The notes under the pieces: model-generated | The model's database searches: none | The model's input: only the letters and a program-made list of their open reading frames with translations | Told to the model about the DNA's origin: nothing | Position numbers and translations under genes: made by a program | Source of the DNA: Opitutus sp. GAS368 | GTDB lineage: Bacteria; Verrucomicrobiota; Verrucomicrobiia; Chthoniobacterales; Chthoniobacteraceae | DNA: 33,217 nucleotides | Assembly: GCA_943329925.2 (NCBI GenBank) | Contig: CALQFT020000017.1 | Location: 1-33,217 of the forward strand | Direction: 5' to 3' | Shown here: positions 1,590 through 15,011 of the stretch, piece after piece | Layout of the letters: each line of letters starts with the position of its first letter | Position numbering within the stretch: the stretch's first letter is position 1

Positions 1590-3164
1590 CTATTTCACCA
1601 ATGCTCCACCGGGACCTTGTCCAGGCTGCCAGGGATGTTTGCCTTTCTCTGTGTCGTCTGGTGGCAAGCTTTCGGCAAACTGATCCTCGTCTTTTAATTC
1701 ATCACGCAGCCGGGAAAGCTCAGTCTTGAGAACTTTAACCAACCCAGCGGATTCTGGGGCATCGTAAATGTTGTTTAACTCATCGGGGTCTTTCACCAAG
1801 TCGAACAACTCCCAAGCGTTTTTCTTCCAAAAATAGATTAACTTATGAGTCGTGGTACGCACGCCATAGTGGGCGCGCGTGTTGTGGTGGCCGGGATCGT
1901 GGTAGTAGCGGTAATACATGGATTGCCGCCAGTCGCTTGGCTTTTCGCCTTTGAGAATTGGCACCAGCGAATGTCCCTGCATATCAGACGGAACCGGCAT
2001 GCCAGCGATGTCCAAAAAGGTGGGCGCATAGTCCACATTGAGCGCAAACAAATCACTCACGGCGCCGGCCTGGGTCACGCCGGGCCAAGAAACCATCAGC
2101 GGAATTCGCAGCGAATGATCGTACATGAAGCGCTTGTCGTACATCCCGTGGTCCCCCATGAAAAATCCGTTATCCGTCGTGTAGATAACGACGGTGTTTT
2201 GCGCGAGGCCCTCGTCTGCGAGCCACTTCCGAAGCCGGCCGACTTCATCGTCGACGCTCTGCACACAGGCAAGATAGTCGCGCATCAAATGCTGATATTT
2301 CCAAGATAAGAGCGCATCGCCGGAGAGCGTTTTTTTTATCCCATTTTCCTCCACCTCCACCTCTGTGGGTCTGACTGCCAACCACTTCTTGTTTTCCTGC
2401 GGAGACAAACCGCTTGGAGGCACCAACTTCAAGTCATTACGCGTGAGACTGCGCACCACCGATTGGTCGTTTTCAGGTAACGCCGCCGGGCGGGTGGCGT
2501 AATCGTCGCGCAGGGTTGCGGGCTCTGGGATGATGCGATTGGCGAACTTCGCGGCATTTTCCGGCGTGGGCTCCCAAGCGCGATGCGGAGCCTTGTGGTG
2601 CAGCATCATGAAAAACGGCTTGTCCTTCGGCCGCTGTTGCAACGCCTCAATGCCAAGGTCCGTGATCACCTTCGTGGCGTAACCCGGATAAACGCGCAGG
2701 CCTGTGTTGTCGTAAAGAATGGGATCCCAATAGCGCCCTTGGCCCGGGAGAATGTTCCATTTGTCGAACCCCATCGGATCCGACCCGAGATGCCATTTAC
2801 CGGTCATCACGGTGTAGTATCCACCAGCCTGCATTAACTTTGCGACGGTCTGCTGTTGACCATTGAAGGTATTAAAAACGGGCGTGCCGTTGAGATGCGA
2901 GTATTTTCCAGTAAGCAACGTGGCACGACTTGGGGTGCAGATGGAATTGGTAACGAAAGCGTTTTTGAAGCGCACTCCGTCCGCCGCGAGTTTGTCGAGA
3001 TGGGGCGTGATATTGACTTTGGAGCCGTACGCCGAAATCGAGTGGTAGGCGTGATCATCCGTCATGATAAACAGGATGTTGGGCCTATTCGCGGGCTTGG
3101 AATCGGCCGCCGCACGAAGAGGCAGCGGAGCCAATAGGAGGAGAGCGAGGGAGGGGAACTTCAT
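1590..3164 (-). CDS. Secreted type I (formylglycine) sulfatase
   Basis: A 524-residue sulfatase with a signal peptide (MKFPSLALLLLAPLPLRAAA), so it is exported. The maturation motif C-T-P-S-R (Cys76) is the C-x-P-S-R type, whose cysteine is converted to formylglycine by a sulfatase-modifying enzyme encoded elsewhere. The N-terminal metal-binding pair sits in PNILFIMTDDH, and TTDNGFFMGDHGMYDKR is the second conserved block with metal-binding Asp/Asn. Such enzymes remove sulfate esters, most often from polysaccharides in this bacterial group; the substrate cannot be read from the sequence. The ATG at 3164 is preferred over a TTG at 3173 because it starts directly before the signal peptide. It is the last gene of a same-strand set with a CBM9-like glycan protein and two secreted hydrolases, which supports a carbohydrate substrate. 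Confidence 0.92.
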   Translation of the reverse strand: MKFPSLALLLLAPLPLRAAADSKPANRPNILFIMTDDHAYHSISAYGSKVNITPHLDKLAADGVRFKNAFVTNSICTPSRATLLTGKYSHLNGTPVFNTFNGQQQTVAKLMQAGGYYTVMTGKWHLGSDPMGFDKWNILPGQGRYWDPILYDNTGLRVYPGYATKVITDLGIEALQQRPKDKPFFMMLHHKAPHRAWEPTPENAAKFANRIIPEPATLRDDYATRPAALPENDQSVVRSLTRNDLKLVPPSGLSPQENKKWLAVRPTEVEVEENGIKKTLSGDALLSWKYQHLMRDYLACVQSVDDEVGRLRKWLADEGLAQNTVVIYTTDNGFFMGDHGMYDKRFMYDHSLRIPLMVSWPGVTQAGAVSDLFALNVDYAPTFLDIAGMPVPSDMQGHSLVPILKGEKPSDWRQSMYYRYYHDPGHHNTRAHYGVRTTTHKLIYFWKKNAWELFDLVKDPDELNNIYDAPESAGLVKVLKTELSRLRDELKDEDQFAESLPPDDTEKGKHPWQPGQGPGGALVK

Positions 3165-3332
3165 AAGGGTCAATAGAGTCCGAAACTGTGGAGTTCTCTT
3201 TGGTTACTCGTTGCCACGAGGGAAGTCACACCAGAAATCCGCCGCCCGAGGATTTGGTCTTCAGTTCTTTTTTGGGCGCGCGCTGTGGAGGGCGGGGCGA
3301 CTTTTCGCACTACAAAAGCTGTGCTCTCAGAT

Positions 3333-6300
3333 TTAGTCCTCAAACTCGGTGGCCGTTGGGCCAAGTTCAAGCTGGGCGCCGTCAATCCAGATTTGGCCCG
3401 GCTCACGGAGGCGGACTTCGTAACGAGCTTCACTGACGTTGGCGGGGATCAGACCCGTGATGGAGTAGCGTTGCCACTCGGTGCTAAGTTTGATCGTAAT
3501 GGCTTCGCCACGCTCCTTTTCGGCGTTCATCTGCGAGCAACGCAGCCACACATCGCGGCCGGGTTGATCGGCTTTGAGATAAACCGAGAGGGTGTAAGTT
3601 TGGGCGGCATTGCTCGCGGGATCGCAGCGTAACATTAATTGCTCGTAGCCGCTGCTGGTGGTCTTTGTGAGTTGGATACAGCGTTTTCCAAAGAGGGCTC
3701 CGTTCTCGCTAATCGTGGCGCCTGGCGTCATGAGGCAGTAGTCGGCACAACCTGCCGCGGTGGCATCCTCGAAGCTGGGATTGGGCAGTACATTTTTGCG
3801 CCCTTTTCTGAAACCGCCTGCGAGAAAGGGTTCCACGCTCATGAGGTCTGGCTTCAGCACAACCTGCTGCACACTCACAGCTTTGGCGCCCGTGTCGCCG
3901 GTGCTCTGCACATACCAAGCGCGTGTGGCATACGGCTCTAGGGTGTCGTTGAAGCCATGGTCGTGGATCTCCATGTTTTGAGAGCCAAACACTTCCTTGG
4001 CGGACGTCATTTGATCGAAGGCAAAGAGGCAACGCACGGGATGATGACGACCGTTGGCTGCCAGCAGGATGACTTGCCCCTGCTCGTTTTGGAAAATACC
4101 GACGTGAACATCCGGGTAGCGCTCGGCTTTGGGTTCAAAGGGGGATTCAACAAAGCTGGGAACACCGTCCACTGCGTCCACCACAGCCCGGTTGTAGCGG
4201 ATGCCAGTCAATGGCTCTGGGCCTGCGATGAAGGGGGTGAGTTGGCTGATCTCCTTGCCAAGTTGCTGGCACGTTTGCCAGTCCGTCTCCCGCATGTTGC
4301 TGTAGGCGAAGTTGAAGATGCCAGTGGCCCGATAGATGAGGGCGAGATAGGTCTGGCAGCGAATCTCGGGAGCCGTCAGCGGTCGCTTGTAGAGGCGGCT
4401 CCAGCGCGGACAGGCGAGGATTTGCCAAACCGGCAGTCGTCCTGTCTCGGCACGTTGCCGGGTCATCCAAGCGATCTTGGCAACGTGATTGGGAGTGCTG
4501 CGCACCTCGTCCCCCGCGGGCGGATGCCAATAGGGATCGGTCACAAGGATGTCACACCAGTTCGTATAATCCGTGCCTTCGGGGATGTGGCTGGAGTAGT
4601 TGACAATGACGGGATGGTAGCCATCGGCTTGTCGGACTCGGGCAAAGTATTCCTGGCCGAACCTCACTTGGTTGAACGCCTCTTTGGGCAGGGGCTCGTC
4701 CATGATGAAGTGCGCGGCGAGATTCGGGGCGTGCTTCACAGCTTCGACTCCGGCGATCATGCGATCGAGGTTTTTGTGGAAAAACTCGCCGTAGATCGCC
4801 TCGCGTTCGGGAAGCGAGATCGGCAGCGTGAGTACATTTTTGAGCTGGGTGAGGTTTTGCGAATTCGTGATGCGCTGCACTTGTTTCAAAAGATCGCCGT
4901 CATAGCGTGCGTGCGCGTCCCAGATGATCGGCTCCGCGCATTCGTCGGGGCAACTGACGAGTGCGAGGCGATATTTCGCCGCCAGTCGCTGGTAGTTCGC
5001 CATGCCCTGCGGCGTGGTCTTGTTCCAAACCACAAAGGTATTGAATCCTCGCTCTGCAAGCTGTTTGAACGCTGCTTCATCGTCGTCGCGCACTCCAGAC
5101 ATGATCACGCCAAAGGGCACAAACGGTTTGCCATTATCCAATACCATACGTCGAGCTTGATCGATCTTCCACTCCGCTCCCGGCTGGGGCTGCAGTCTCC
5201 GCAGGGGAAGCTTGAGTTCAAAGATCACCCGCTCGTCACGATGAAGCTGCAGCGTGATGGACTCGCTCAGCGGAACCTTGAGCTGACCGCTGCGAAGCAC
5301 CGGAGAGACGCTTCCGAGTTCCTTTCCTTCCGCCGAACGCGCAACCAGCTTCAGCCCTGCGCTTGGATTGACCCGGTAGTGAATCACCGCCTCGGCTTCG
5401 CTGGTGTAGTAGTTGCGATCCAGGAAGGCTGTGAGTGGCCGCCACGCGCTGGTGTCCTCGATGAACTCGGTGCCAAGCACTTCATCCGTGGCGGCATCAA
5501 GCAAGTTCAGTTCCGCCTGCTCAGGGTTGGGATCCTGTAAGGCGAGCTGCGTTTCGAGGATTTGTTTGGGCTCCAACTTTAACACCTCTCCTCGAGTTGA
5601 ACCGATGGCCAAGCGCACCTTGGCCGTGGACGCTCCATAATTTTGCAGGCTGACACGAGCTGCCGACATCTCTGCACTCGCCTTGCTGATGCCAACCAGC
5701 GGGGGTTGCCGAATCTCTAGTGCGGCAGGAAAACCAGCGACAGCACGAAACGCAGCCGGCTCATGAAAGCTGCTCTTCACAGGCGACCAACTGCTGCTTT
5801 CGCGCGATTCGCTGATGACCACGTTCTGGGAGTCAATCACCGGCACGCGTCGATTGCGGGCTATGTTGAGTCGCAGGTCGTGGAATCCGCCGCCGGAACG
5901 CAGCAGGGAGAGCGGCACCGCGATCTCTGCCGTCCAACCGTGATCAGTGCGGCGAGTGGCCGAGCGCCAGGGCACATCCCAGTATTTCTTCACGGCCGTG
6001 CCGGTGATGAGCCGCTCATCCCGTGCGCCACCGAAGCTCAAAGCATAATGGTAAAAGTAAGCAGGTTCCGTCACTCGCGGGGCGAGGAAAATCTCGATCG
6101 ACTCATCCTTCATCGCACCACGGTCATGTCCCTTCACTGTGGGCTGCAACAACTTCATCGCCTCGTGCCGGCACTCGATGCCGATGTAAAACCAAGCATC
6201 ATCGTGCGCGAGCCGGAAGGTGGTCTCAGCGACCTGCTTGCCAGTTTGAAACACCGTGAAGTCAGACTGCGCCGAAGCCTGAGACCAGAACGACTCTTCC

Positions 6301-6398
6301 AATACGCCGTCGATGATTGCCGTGCCGCGAACCACAACGGCTTCGGCTGCATGAAGTCTGGTGATTAAGACGAGCGAGAGAAAAAGAAAACGTATCAT
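3333..6398 (-). CDS. Large secreted protein: CBM9-like domain, glycoside-hydrolase-like TIM barrel, C-terminal CBM-like domain
   Basis: A 1021-residue exported protein with signal peptide MIRFLFLSLVLITRLHAAEA. Residues about 20-215 resemble a family 9 carbohydrate-binding (DOMON-like) module: IDGVLEESFWSQA, then AWFYIGIEC, then DESIEIFLAP. The middle has beta-sandwich-like sequence (about 240-405). Residues about 415-720 look like a beta/alpha barrel: LDNGKPFVPFGVIM, then GFNTFVVWN, then AAHFIMDEPLP with a candidate acid Glu568. Residues about 855-1021 resemble a CenC-type jelly roll (NPSFED at the start, IWIDGAQLELG near the end). I do not recognise an established glycoside hydrolase family, so activity is inferred only from architecture. 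The ATG at 6398 is chosen over a TTG at 6434 because it begins the signal peptide. The esterase gene is 57 bases upstream and the sulfatase 168 bases downstream. Confidence 0.8.
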   Translation of the reverse strand: MIRFLFLSLVLITRLHAAEAVVVRGTAIIDGVLEESFWSQASAQSDFTVFQTGKQVAETTFRLAHDDAWFYIGIECRHEAMKLLQPTVKGHDRGAMKDESIEIFLAPRVTEPAYFYHYALSFGGARDERLITGTAVKKYWDVPWRSATRRTDHGWTAEIAVPLSLLRSGGGFHDLRLNIARNRRVPVIDSQNVVISESRESSSWSPVKSSFHEPAAFRAVAGFPAALEIRQPPLVGISKASAEMSAARVSLQNYGASTAKVRLAIGSTRGEVLKLEPKQILETQLALQDPNPEQAELNLLDAATDEVLGTEFIEDTSAWRPLTAFLDRNYYTSEAEAVIHYRVNPSAGLKLVARSAEGKELGSVSPVLRSGQLKVPLSESITLQLHRDERVIFELKLPLRRLQPQPGAEWKIDQARRMVLDNGKPFVPFGVIMSGVRDDDEAAFKQLAERGFNTFVVWNKTTPQGMANYQRLAAKYRLALVSCPDECAEPIIWDAHARYDGDLLKQVQRITNSQNLTQLKNVLTLPISLPEREAIYGEFFHKNLDRMIAGVEAVKHAPNLAAHFIMDEPLPKEAFNQVRFGQEYFARVRQADGYHPVIVNYSSHIPEGTDYTNWCDILVTDPYWHPPAGDEVRSTPNHVAKIAWMTRQRAETGRLPVWQILACPRWSRLYKRPLTAPEIRCQTYLALIYRATGIFNFAYSNMRETDWQTCQQLGKEISQLTPFIAGPEPLTGIRYNRAVVDAVDGVPSFVESPFEPKAERYPDVHVGIFQNEQGQVILLAANGRHHPVRCLFAFDQMTSAKEVFGSQNMEIHDHGFNDTLEPYATRAWYVQSTGDTGAKAVSVQQVVLKPDLMSVEPFLAGGFRKGRKNVLPNPSFEDATAAGCADYCLMTPGATISENGALFGKRCIQLTKTTSSGYEQLMLRCDPASNAAQTYTLSVYLKADQPGRDVWLRCSQMNAEKERGEAITIKLSTEWQRYSITGLIPANVSEARYEVRLREPGQIWIDGAQLELGPTATEFED

Positions 6399-6455: not shown

Positions 6456-7571
6456 TCAGCGCTTCGCTTTGAGGTGCCGGTCGAGTAGTTCCTCAGCGGC
6501 AGTCTGCGCCTCCGCCGGGTATCGGTGTCCTTGGCGGTGGTTAAGCAAACGCACGTTATCCCGCGCGCCCAACAGATCATAGACTGGGCGGGCAGCGTCG
6601 ATGAAGACGGCGCTTTGATCGCTGTCGGCTGAATCACCGGCGAGCAAAAGAAACGGTCTGGGCGCGATCAGCGCGAGGAGTTCATGGTGCTCGTGGTTGA
6701 AGGTCGCCGGCCGACCGAGCGGACCGAGATACCAGGGCGCATCCCAGTTGCTAAAGGTGAGTCCGATGCCGCCTTCGCTGAACACGGCGACCTTGAAGCG
6801 CTCGTCGAACGCGGCGGCGTAGAGCACTTCCTTCGCCCCCAGTGAATGGCCCAAACACCCGATGCGCTCGCGGTCAACCAGTGGCAACGATTCCAGATAA
6901 TCCGCCGCCCGGATGCCGTCCCAAGTCATTCGCGCCATGCCTTTCCATGTCGGATGACTTTGTTGCAGACGCCTCGCCCACTCAGCGTAAGTGGCTCCTT
7001 CATCGAAGACGAAGCAACGAGGGCACACCACTACGTAACCGCGTTTCACGAGCTGCACACCTTGCATCAGTTCGGGCACGGAAGCATCCAACCCTGCGGC
7101 CTGCTTTGCGTGCGTCTTCTCGGTTTGATGGAATACAACGACGCCGGGGAGCTTCCCCGTGGCGTTCTTGGGAATGAGCACGTAGGCATCAGTGAACACC
7201 CCTTCCTCGATCTGATATTTTACGTGCTGGCGCGTGAACTCCGGGAGCGTTTCGGTGGCCAGCACCTCCACCTTCAATGCAACGCGTTCCTTGGGAAAAT
7301 CGCCGAGGAAAGCCTGCCACTCCGCGCGCACAGCGTCGCGCCGCTTCATCCATGCTGGCGCGGAAGTGATGGGCAGCCCGCCCTCGTCCACGAGCAGCGG
7401 CCGGAGCTGACCAATCGTTCGTTCGGCGGCGGACAAGTGCGGCGACACAGACCCACACAGCGCAAGGGCAGCGAGGAGGAGAGATGCCTGCCGTCGCATC
7501 GAACTGAAAAGCGATATGGCAAAAAACGCCGAGGCGGCGCGGATTCGATGGATGCTCGGGGGGATCATCAT
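6456..7571 (-). CDS. Secreted alpha/beta hydrolase (esterase-like)
   Basis: A 371-residue alpha/beta-hydrolase with an exported N-terminus. The nucleophile elbow is G-H-S-L-G (Ser243), followed by AKEVLYAAAFDERFK. The probable acid lies in LLLAGDSADSDQS and the histidine in LLNHRQGHRYP, so the triad looks complete. The segment PGVVVFHQTEKTHAKQAAG and the late NHEHHELLALIAPRPFLLL are typical of the esterase / prolyl-oligopeptidase-like hydrolases common in Planctomycetes and Verrucomicrobia. The start is uncertain: ATG at 7571 gives a long basic leader, whereas the internal ATG at 7499 (MRRQASLLLAALALCG) gives a textbook signal peptide. Neither has a Shine-Dalgarno motif. Its position between another hydrolase and a CBM9-like protein suggests de-esterification of a glycan, but the substrate is inference. 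Confidence 0.85.
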   Translation of the reverse strand: MMIPPSIHRIRAASAFFAISLFSSMRRQASLLLAALALCGSVSPHLSAAERTIGQLRPLLVDEGGLPITSAPAWMKRRDAVRAEWQAFLGDFPKERVALKVEVLATETLPEFTRQHVKYQIEEGVFTDAYVLIPKNATGKLPGVVVFHQTEKTHAKQAAGLDASVPELMQGVQLVKRGYVVVCPRCFVFDEGATYAEWARRLQQSHPTWKGMARMTWDGIRAADYLESLPLVDRERIGCLGHSLGAKEVLYAAAFDERFKVAVFSEGGIGLTFSNWDAPWYLGPLGRPATFNHEHHELLALIAPRPFLLLAGDSADSDQSAVFIDAARPVYDLLGARDNVRLLNHRQGHRYPAEAQTAAEELLDRHLKAKR

Positions 7572-7648: not shown

Positions 7649-9754
7649 TTACTTGCTTCCTGCCGCCTCGCCCTCGACTCCAATCATCTTGCGGAGGTCG
7701 GGCAGGTCATAGTGCCGCAAGACTCCATGCACGGTGTTCACGGATTGATCGACCGCTTCCGTAGCGCTAACCAACGAGTCCCACGACGGGATCATCTCCC
7801 GGAGTGTGGTAGATTTGTAGGCTGTACGATCCAGTGCGGCAGCGTGGAGCGCAGGGATGGCGGCTTCACCGATGGCGAGAAGATGGACTTCATCGGCCAT
7901 TGTTTTCAACACGCGGGTCCAACGTCCAACATCGTCCGTACGCATGCCTACGTAGCTCTTGCCCATAAGGTAGGCGGTGAGAATTTCGAGATTGTCGCGA
8001 CCAAAGCGACCCGCACCGAATACCTTTCGGCGCAGGCCGGTCTCGGTCTCGCCGATGCCGCGCAGTTCGGCGGCGAGAACGGTGTGGCCTTGTTGCACGA
8101 GTTGCTCAATCGGCCCACCGGGCGCAGCGTCGGTCTTCATGCTTGTCCCGTGAAGATAGAGCGTGGCTTTGCGGCTGGGCTTCTTCGGCACAAAGAGCAG
8201 CGCGGGAAGCCTGAGGCCCTCTTCGGCGGCGATGGCCACCTTGGTGATCTTGCAGAAATCGCGCTCGATGATTCCGAGTTTCTCTATGCTGGGCGTCGTG
8301 TCATCCGCTCGCGCCCCGATGGTCTCACGAATGGTTTTTTTCTTTGCAACATCATCCATGCGGAGCCAAGTACTCTCGCGGGATTTCCTCAGCGCGATGG
8401 CGATCTCTGCATTGATCTCAAACACTGAGCGTTCACCCGGCGTGAGCAGCACTTGGCCTTTCGGCATGCACTGAAGTTGTTCAGGAGTCCAATCGGGCAG
8501 ACTGAGCGCTCGCAGTTCGTCGTCGGTGAAGGAGTCCGGCAGTTTCGCGATCTCGCGCACGATCACATCTTTGCCGAGCAGCCAGCGGCTCATGAAACGC
8601 GTGACGGCCTCGCGCAATTGGAGTGTGAAACCATGCGGCGCGTCGGGCACGGCCATATCAATTGTTTCCGGGGAACCCAGGCGTGAATAGAAGCGCTTCG
8701 CATCGCGAAACACCTCCCACGTTCCGCCAAAGTCGAAGGTCGCATCGCGTTTTCCAGCGCAGATGAGCGTGGGCTTCGGGGCGCGCATGATGCAGTAGTC
8801 CGCCTCGTCCATGCCGAAGGCAATCTGGCCGAATATGTTCTGCTCGCCGTCTTGGGGGCCCAACGTCTCTATGAGCTTGCGGAACGTGGTGAGGTAGCAA
8901 CCCGGTGCTGCAGCGACGATGCGATCTTCGAGCGCCATGAGATACGCCGTCTCAGTGCCACCGCCGCTGTTGCCGGTGCAGCCGATTTTCTCGGCGATGA
9001 TGTCCTTGCGGCTTTGCAGGTAATCGATGACGCGCATCCCGTCCCAGATGCGAAACTGCGCCACATTCGCACCGATCAGCGCGCTGCTGAAGCCGGTCGC
9101 CGTGTGCTCGGTCGTGCACATCAGCCGCACGTTGGGATGCGGCACCTTCACATGCGGCGCATCGTCGAAAACGGTGCGCTCCTTGGTCGTGTCGAGCATC
9201 TGGTAGCGCTCGCCCTGCCCGATGGGGTCGTAGCAAATCGCCGCCATGCCGTGACGCGCCAGCAGCATGCAGACAAGCTGATACTGACCAGCCGCCTTCC
9301 CATCATGGCTGTGCCCACACGCCACAAGCACCGCAGGCCACGGCGGTGGAGTCTCCGGGAGGTAAAGATTGGCCGTGAGATGAAACGCAGGCCGCGTCTC
9401 TAAGATGATCTTTTCCACCCGGTAGCCGTTGCCCTTCAGCGTGCCCGTGATACGCGCATCAAGCGGCGTTCGCTCAGGCAGCCCGCCGATGCGTTCAAGG
9501 AAAAACGTCCGCCGCTGCTCCTGCCATTCGCGACAGGCGGCCGCGCTCTTGAGCATCTTCTCAAATGCCCCGCTACGCAGCTCCGTCATCGCTACGAACT
9601 CGCGCGTGAGCCACTGTTCAAAGGCTTGCTCCGCCGTCACACCGTCGGCGGCGGGCTTGAGGACAGTGAGGTCTTCGGCACCGAGCGAGATGGTCTGAGC
9701 GCTGAGTGCTGATGCGATGCATAGAATCGTGGCGTAGGATCTGAATCTGCTCAT
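7649..9754 (-). CDS. Secreted two-domain alpha/beta hydrolase (acetyl-xylan-esterase-like), second domain apparently inactive
   Basis: A 701-residue exported protein with signal peptide MSRFRSYATILCIASALSAQTISLGAE; the ATG at 9754 is preferred because the upstream reading frame back to 9895 adds unrelated sequence before it. The N-terminal hydrolase domain has LVACGHSHDGK, CYDPIGQGER and the nucleophile elbow G-N-S-G-G-G (Ser263), with a histidine in DAPHGF. This matches the large esterases often annotated as acetyl xylan esterases. The C-terminal part (about residues 520-690) has a second hydrolase-like fold start (ATLYLHGTSM, then AAELRGIGET), but the elbow position reads AIGEAAIPALHAA with no serine, so this half is probably structural or binding. 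It is the first gene of the four-gene secreted cluster, 77 bases before the next hydrolase. Confidence 0.85.
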   Translation of the reverse strand: MSRFRSYATILCIASALSAQTISLGAEDLTVLKPAADGVTAEQAFEQWLTREFVAMTELRSGAFEKMLKSAAACREWQEQRRTFFLERIGGLPERTPLDARITGTLKGNGYRVEKIILETRPAFHLTANLYLPETPPPWPAVLVACGHSHDGKAAGQYQLVCMLLARHGMAAICYDPIGQGERYQMLDTTKERTVFDDAPHVKVPHPNVRLMCTTEHTATGFSSALIGANVAQFRIWDGMRVIDYLQSRKDIIAEKIGCTGNSGGGTETAYLMALEDRIVAAAPGCYLTTFRKLIETLGPQDGEQNIFGQIAFGMDEADYCIMRAPKPTLICAGKRDATFDFGGTWEVFRDAKRFYSRLGSPETIDMAVPDAPHGFTLQLREAVTRFMSRWLLGKDVIVREIAKLPDSFTDDELRALSLPDWTPEQLQCMPKGQVLLTPGERSVFEINAEIAIALRKSRESTWLRMDDVAKKKTIRETIGARADDTTPSIEKLGIIERDFCKITKVAIAAEEGLRLPALLFVPKKPSRKATLYLHGTSMKTDAAPGGPIEQLVQQGHTVLAAELRGIGETETGLRRKVFGAGRFGRDNLEILTAYLMGKSYVGMRTDDVGRWTRVLKTMADEVHLLAIGEAAIPALHAAALDRTAYKSTTLREMIPSWDSLVSATEAVDQSVNTVHGVLRHYDLPDLRKMIGVEGEAAGSK

Positions 9755-9969
9755 GTGGCTGGGGGGGGAGTTGGGCCTAGTGCTAAAAATAGCAAAACAG
9801 ATAGATGACAGGAGATTGTCGGCTTGCAAAAGATTTCGCGATCTAAAACTCAAGGACTTCCTCAACTCCATCCAGACTAACAATATGCCCACCACTCCTG
9901 ATCCAGAGACAAACTTACACCATCTCTTTTAGGTTTATGGCTGATTAAAAGACCTCAGCACCTGGAAAC

Positions 9970-13982: not shown

Positions 13983-15011
13983 TCAACGCCAAGACGCCAA
14001 ACCACGCAAAGGAATCCAAAGCCAATCCGGGCGGTGGCGCATTTCGTAGAGGGCCTCGTAAATAGTTTTTTCCCATGCCAGGCCGTCTAGGCAGCTCCTC
14101 CAGGCGCTCCCTAGAATTGGTGCGGAGCGAGTCCATGCATCCAAAAACGCTTCCTGCAAAGTCTGTTGCGCACCATCAGATGCGCCGCTTAGCGCCACTG
14201 CATACGCGAAGGATCGCAACATCCCAGCCGCATCTCGAAGCGGTGTATCCAACAGCCTGCGCTCCGCAAGCGGCCGGGTCGGCTCCCCCTCAAAATCGAC
14301 GAAGTAAAAACGCCGCACCCCATCCTCCTTCCGCTCCAAAGCCTGTCCCAAATGCAAATCGCCATGCACCCTGCATTGCACTCCGCTCAGCGATAATCTC
14401 GCGAGCTGCTCGACTCGCCCTCTCCACCCATTCTCACCAGTCACCCAATCTCGCCGCAACTCGCTCCACGTTTCCTCTGGCACCGCGAAGGGTCGCTCCC
14501 CTCCCAGCGCGCTAATCCATTGCTCGATGCCACCAATTAGACGTCCGATCCAGCGTTGCTGCGCCACCGCATCCCAAGCCATCGCAGCAAACGGCGTCCC
14601 AACCGCACCGGATCCCAGAACGGCGTGCAGCTCGCCCACGCAACGGCCGAGGTCCCGCGCGTATCCCTCGTCCACAACGCCTGTGCGCAATGCCTCCACG
14701 GTGTAATCCCACGCGGACGCTCCCTCCACCCACCTCTGGACAAAGGCGCGCGTTATCCTAGCCTTCCCTCGACGTTGGTCAAGCCGCGCGCCAAATTCTG
14801 GAGCATCTCCATATCCTTGTGATCGCAAAAATTGTGCGACTTCAGGCTCGGGATGAATCCCCGTCTCCGGATAGCGATACCATTTCAGCAACCACTCGCC
14901 CGACGGACCATCTCCGCGCCACAAATGGTTTGTAGAATGACCGTCGTGCCTCCTCCAGCGCGTCCCCCTCGCCCGAAATGCCCCACGCTCCACATGCCAG
15001 TCTGCGCGCAT
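13983..15011 (-). CDS. Maltokinase-like (Mak/Pep2-type) phosphotransferase
   Basis: A 342-residue kinase of the aminoglycoside-phosphotransferase fold. Its C-terminal half carries the block characteristic of maltokinase, which makes maltose 1-phosphate for the GlgE alpha-glucan route: R-V-H-G-D-L-H-L-G-Q (about 214-223), DFEGEPTRPLAERRLLDTPLRD (about 239-260) and AGMLRSFAYA. The likely ATP-binding lysine is Lys43 in WLLKWYRYPETGIHPEPEV, also typical of this family. It is about 110 residues shorter than actinobacterial Mak, so the extra N-terminal cap is largely missing. No treS, glgE or glgB is within the window, so the substrate could be maltose or another sugar. The gene starts 8 bases after the HAD phosphatase stop codon, indicating co-transcription; pyrD follows. 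Confidence 0.75.
   Translation of the reverse strand: MRADWHVERGAFRARGTRWRRHDGHSTNHLWRGDGPSGEWLLKWYRYPETGIHPEPEVAQFLRSQGYGDAPEFGARLDQRRGKARITRAFVQRWVEGASAWDYTVEALRTGVVDEGYARDLGRCVGELHAVLGSGAVGTPFAAMAWDAVAQQRWIGRLIGGIEQWISALGGERPFAVPEETWSELRRDWVTGENGWRGRVEQLARLSLSGVQCRVHGDLHLGQALERKEDGVRRFYFVDFEGEPTRPLAERRLLDTPLRDAAGMLRSFAYAVALSGASDGAQQTLQEAFLDAWTRSAPILGSAWRSCLDGLAWEKTIYEALYEMRHRPDWLWIPLRGLASWR

Follow-up and report, generated by a model that had tools for sequence, protein, structure and literature searches.

The window analyzed here, a 33,217-nucleotide stretch of Opitutus sp. GAS368 DNA (contig CALQFT020000017.1), encodes a secreted multidomain protein whose barrel, as judged by alignment, is a member of a very large family left unnamed by Pfam and NCBIfam models. 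Profile comparisons show homology of this barrel to clan GH-A, the family being either derived from GH-A or sister to it, and the alignments show that the carboxylate of the GH-A nucleophile column is missing, with Asp-Glu on β-4 and an acidic-x-Tyr motif on β-6 retained. This is a GH-A-related family with non-canonical catalytic residues, which probably either cuts sugars by another route or only binds them.

The initial annotation had described a 1021-residue protein with CBM9-like, barrel, and CenC-like parts. The ORF is real and lies on the minus strand (Table 1), which had not been stated; the plus-strand frame across 3333-6398 is interrupted by stops. The CBM9-like part was borne out by a match above the Pfam cut-off. 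For the CenC-like part the picture is mixed, since an NCBIfam match above its cut-off makes a jelly-roll-like module plausible at the C terminus but the PF02018 (CBM_4_9) match there (E = 0.038) falls below the Pfam cut-off. The β-sandwich behind the barrel (about residues 736-834) gives weak Malt_amylase_C-like matches in 7 of 35 family members. AlphaFold2 models of the whole protein and of the barrel, built from six near-identical sequences, had mean pLDDT values of 33.8 and 37.4, respectively. With both below 40, strand assignments were therefore made by alignment, and β-strand numbers are to be read in this sense throughout.

Table 1. Features of the barrel-protein gene and its neighbors (window coordinates)
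Feature	Position	Strand	Basis or remark
Secreted multidomain protein, 1021 aa, whole ORF	3333..6398	minus	ATG at 6398
Likely signal peptide, residues 1-17, MIRFLFLSLVLITRLHA	6348..6398	minus	Read from sequence by eye
CBM9-like domain, residues 29-166	5901..6314	minus	Pfam PF06452 (CBM9_1), 24.7 bits vs. cut-off 23.4
(β/α)8-type catalytic-like domain, about residues 411-735	4194..5168	minus	Profile-profile and PDB profile matches
D567-E568-P569, β-4 pair, within AAHFIMDEPLP	4692..4700	minus	Alignment; E568 is the predicted general acid/base
D621-P622-Y623, β-6 motif	4530..4538	minus	Family alignment
β-7 segment P656-VWQILAC-P664, contains L661 and A662	4407..4433	minus	Alignment
C-terminal β-sandwich behind barrel, about residues 736-834	3897..4193	minus	Kept in family alignments A3/A4
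C-terminal CenC/CBM4_9-like module, residues 867-1018	3345..3800	minus	NCBIfam NF048003, 46.8 vs. cut-off 36 bits
α/β hydrolase, 371 aa, glucuronyl-esterase/DLH-like	6456..7571	minus	Pfam; 57 bp upstream of barrel-protein gene
Type I sulfatase, CTPSR motif	1590..3173	minus	Pfam; downstream of barrel-protein gene

The fold of the barrel was placed by profile comparison. A phmmer search of the PDB with the single window protein gave no match, and neither PF02449 (GH42) nor PF13320 (GH123_cat) matches it in Pfam. A family profile run against the PDB with hmmsearch found GH158 (9oro) as its best match (E = 3e-19), together with GH42 (9ta3, 4.5e-12; 3tts, 1.3e-11) and GH2 glucuronidases (1e-10). 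With the 85-member alignment, hhalign returned 98.7% for GH42, 97.7% for GH2, 97.4% for GH5, 89.1% for GH123, and 1.3% for GH20, on which GH20 membership was rejected. Control pairs gave 30% for GH42-GH123, 27% for GH5-GH123, and 0.6% for both GH2-GH123 and GH20-GH123. The placement near GH-A and GH123 rests on the wider family, because the small clade of the window protein, taken alone, gives no significant profile match to GH42 or GH123.

That family is broad. The barrel of the window protein falls in no Pfam or NCBIfam family, in line with the initial annotation, which could not place it in a named family; some relatives show weak Pfam GH42 or GH2 matches, one of them at or just above the GH42 cut-off. 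A barrel-only profile picked up remote members in the same class, which were added to alignment A3. Searching 288 sampled genomes of the host phylum with the A3 profile gave family members in 130, and 5-7 scored copies in many of these. The family extends to Deinococcus plasmids. Three scans of viral contigs turned up no diverse relatives. Among the relatives, L060 shares the order CBM9-barrel with the window protein. We found no description of the barrel family in the literature covered, from which subscription papers were mostly absent. All residue counts below refer to an alignment of 85 distinct family members, with about 20% identity across the phylum.

The stretch AAHFIMDEPLP, to which the initial annotation had drawn attention, is present, and its Glu568 does sit at the GH-A acid/base position as claimed. 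The bare tripeptide is weak evidence: DEP occurs once in the protein and proves little because 0.2 copies are expected by chance at the same composition. Its conservation among distant relatives, by contrast, is not chance, to judge from the alignment. Both in the PDB alignments and in hhalign, the family Asp-Glu falls column for column on the Asn-Glu of known enzymes (GH158, GH42, and GH2 in the PDB), so that Glu568 occupies the acid/base column of the clan GH-A β-4 feature, preceded by Asp rather than Asn. We infer from this that E568 is the general acid/base. Asn precedes the acid/base in all 18 GH42 controls that cover the position, and Asn-Glu is present in all 19 GH2 and all 20 GH5 controls. 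In the family, position 567 is Asp in 83/85 members, 568 is Glu in 72 and Asp in 12, 621 is Asp in 70 and Glu in 12, and 623 is Tyr in 84. Positions 568 and 621 pair as E/D in 69 members and as D/E in 12, never as D/D or E/E. This reciprocal swap, one event in a single clade, suggests that the two residues are coupled.

On β-7 the picture is different. The second carboxylate on strand 7, whose absence the initial annotation had named as grounds against its own proposal, is absent from the profile alignment. The GH42 nucleophile column, Glu in 19/19 controls, corresponds to L661 and is nearly always P, L, I, or V in the family (acidic in 0/85). The following position is Gln in 69/85 members, Ala in 7 (including Ala662 here), and Glu in 5. 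The GH42 motif PFLLME(Q/S), whether aligned through PDB sequences or by hhalign, places its nucleophile Glu on the hydrophobic residue that precedes the family Gln. Since both GH42 alignments put the Gln one residue past the nucleophile, a reading in which Gln replaces the nucleophile Glu was dropped. The claim of a new glycoside hydrolase family is partly supported: a GH-A-related family unnamed in Pfam and NCBIfam exists, and a new family in the sense of these models, rather than of CAZy, is plausible, but the claim is incomplete because the strand-7 carboxylate is absent.

Several subfamilies depart from the usual motifs. The clade with Asp-Asp on β-4 and Glu-x-Tyr on β-6, the reciprocal of the usual arrangement, makes up 12/85 members (loci L067, L068, L071, L073, L141, L142, L144, L152, L153, L154, and L164). 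The Deinococcus plasmid members (L261:3836-5047 and L262:2851-4038), which are annotated as hypothetical, have Asp-Asp on β-4, keep the β-7 Gln, and lie in exopolysaccharide-type loci with an LCP protein, glycosyltransferases, and a flippase. Shortened related barrels with MDSP in place of MDEP (L007:1069-2094, L017:1072-2094, and L059:1072-2121) are likely inactive, judging by this substitution; an "NEP" motif in these three was rejected as the β-4 motif, as it lies elsewhere in the alignment. A small subfamily (L056:856-2151 and L174) carries a β-7 Glu at the family Gln position and should help to date when the nucleophile was lost.

Closer to the window protein, five full-length orthologues (L018-L022, 84-87% identity) all keep D567-E568-P569. 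Across the orthologues the barrel shows the lowest dN/dS (0.11-0.14), which argues that it is under purifying selection and the gene therefore functional. The MAGs that carry them are labeled Verrucomicrobiaceae, Prosthecobacter, uncultured Verrucomicrobia, and, in one case, Bacteroidetes; the latter contig (L021, CANJZE010000044.1) holds an 85%-identical orthologue with its neighbor, and its label is probably a binning error. The α/β hydrolase still adjoins the barrel-protein gene in L020, L021, and L022 (84-86% identity) and is a probable operon partner. Adjacency of the sulfatase is not conserved in the orthologues, for which reason it was rejected as a substrate clue. Two of the orthologues, L018 and L022, are copies within one MAG (CANIBP01) with unlike neighbors, DUF4838 and a rhamnogalacturonan-lyase-like protein lying near one copy and the α/β hydrolase adjoining the other. 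More widely, family genes neighbor DUF4838, α-rhamnosidase, GH109, rhamnogalacturonan-lyase-like, and chondroitinase-B-like genes and LacI/GntR regulators, a context that is catabolic but mixed, without specificity for amino sugars. Elsewhere in the window, a 748-aa protein (7649-9895, minus strand) has weak matches to several α/β-hydrolase families, possibly with two such domains, and was placed in no NCBIfam family. A 342-aa protein without a Pfam match (13983-15011, minus strand) resembles C-terminal parts of trehalose-synthase-type maltokinase and glucosamine kinase, below NCBIfam cut-offs.

Our leading reading, a tentative one that stays short of probable, is that the window protein is a secreted multimodular N-acetylhexosaminidase-like enzyme, in which a GH-A-related barrel would work by a substrate-assisted retaining mechanism. 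Substrate assistance is suggested because the nucleophile is absent and an Asp precedes the acid/base, as in GH123 and GH20, and also because the profile match to GH123 is closer than for other GH-A families. In such an enzyme, D567 would hold the 2-acetamido group of β-GalNAc/GlcNAc or of a similar 2-acylamino sugar, the acetamido carbonyl would attack C1, and E568 would protonate the leaving group and then activate water; Y623 is a candidate to bind the acetamido oxygen. Attachment to a polysaccharide would fall to the CBM9-like and CenC-like modules, and the probably cotranscribed α/β hydrolase may remove ester groups of the same glycan. Several observations count against parts of this scheme: the active-site Tyr of GH123 has no clear equivalent, the GH123_cat model of Pfam does not match the protein, and its small clade taken alone matches neither GH42 nor GH123 significantly, which weakens the substrate-assisted reading, and the lack of any pointer to amino sugars in the gene context, together with the absence of a GH20 or GH123 (PF13320) match from the genome carrying the barrel protein, weakens the N-acetylhexosaminidase reading.

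The strongest rival, somewhat unlikely in its own right, is a lectin-like pseudoenzyme in which the nucleophile has been lost and the barrel only binds glycan, like chitinase-like lectins. It would account for a nucleophile column that is non-acidic in 85/85 members, for the two flanking binding-type modules, for the missing family Gln in the window clade as well (A662), and for the MDSP subfamily. However, D-E and D-x-Y are near-invariant phylum-wide at about 20% identity (the Deinococcus members vary them) when such residues usually drift in pure lectins, the E/D swap still leaves two carboxylates, and many copies per genome fit enzymes. We also consider it unlikely that this is a standard retaining GH-A enzyme with a nucleophile shifted, for example, to E678, or with a β-7 register off by one. 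Such an enzyme might draw on E678, which opens the helix following β-7 and is Glu in 77/85 members, or on the Glu found one residue past the GH42 nucleophile column in 5/85, and the β-7 register was set by alignment; yet residues 661 and 662 are both non-acidic here, the family consensus is P, L, or I followed by Gln, and hmmsearch against PDB GH42 sequences gives the same register as hhalign. A normal GH-A enzyme is not supported, the nucleophile column being non-acidic. Less likely still is an inverting glycosidase, or another acid/base enzyme, with E568 and D621 as its acid/base pair: position 621 is acidic in 82/85 members and in one clade exchanges its acidic residue with position 568, but that exchange is one evolutionary event, and a β-6 Asp (DxYP) is common in GH42, whose catalytic pair is two Glu, so this Asp may be structural.

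These readings differ in their consequences. With many copies per genome in glycan degraders, family members risk being mistaken for GH42/GH2-like β-galactosidases or annotated no further than hypothetical protein. If the family works without the GH-A nucleophile, it would exemplify an enzyme clan switching mechanism and open the origin of GH123 to testing; should it consist of pseudoenzymes, the similarity to GH42 would be misleading for annotation.

Among known enzymes, GH42 β-galactosidases share a homologous barrel over ~230 columns that include β-4, β-6 (DxYP), and β-8 (the hhalign match of 98.7%), but they have Asn-Glu where Asp-Glu is found here, and they keep the nucleophile Glu (19/19 vs. 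0/85). GH158 of clan GH-A, the best PDB profile match, aligns from β-1 to β-6; its acid/base motif is Asn-Glu rather than Asp-Glu, and the β-7 half is unaligned. The GH148 enzyme EngU likewise combines a GH42-like barrel with a CBM4-type module and was discovered outside known families (PMC5725463). Unlike the family of the window protein, EngU retains its two catalytic Glu residues, E239 and E581, as demonstrated by mutation (PMC5725463). The GH123/DUF4091 β-N-acetylgalactosaminidases (PF13320) have Asp-Glu(-Pro) in the same place without a β-7 nucleophile, share a conserved Gly and aromatic residue on β-8, and match over a profile spanning β-4 to β-8 (89%), in which hhalign aligns the family DEP to the catalytic DE. 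In GH123 and its DUF4091 relatives, the Asp of this motif stabilizes the 2-acetamido group and the Glu is the acid/base of a substrate-assisted mechanism, for which thiazoline complexes, mutants, and NMR provide evidence (PMC11087588). However, the first strands of GH123 do not align with the family, the flanking domains differ, and the active-site Tyr on β-7 (Y392 of NgaLy) has no evident equivalent in the barrel; the column of W431 of NgaLy is Tyr, Phe, or Trp in 81/85 members and Phe697 in the window protein. We offer only as a doubtful conjecture that the family turned a GH-A barrel into a substrate-assisted N-acetylhexosaminidase, through loss of the nucleophile and a change from Asn-Glu to Asp-Glu, which would link GH-A to GH123 evolutionarily.
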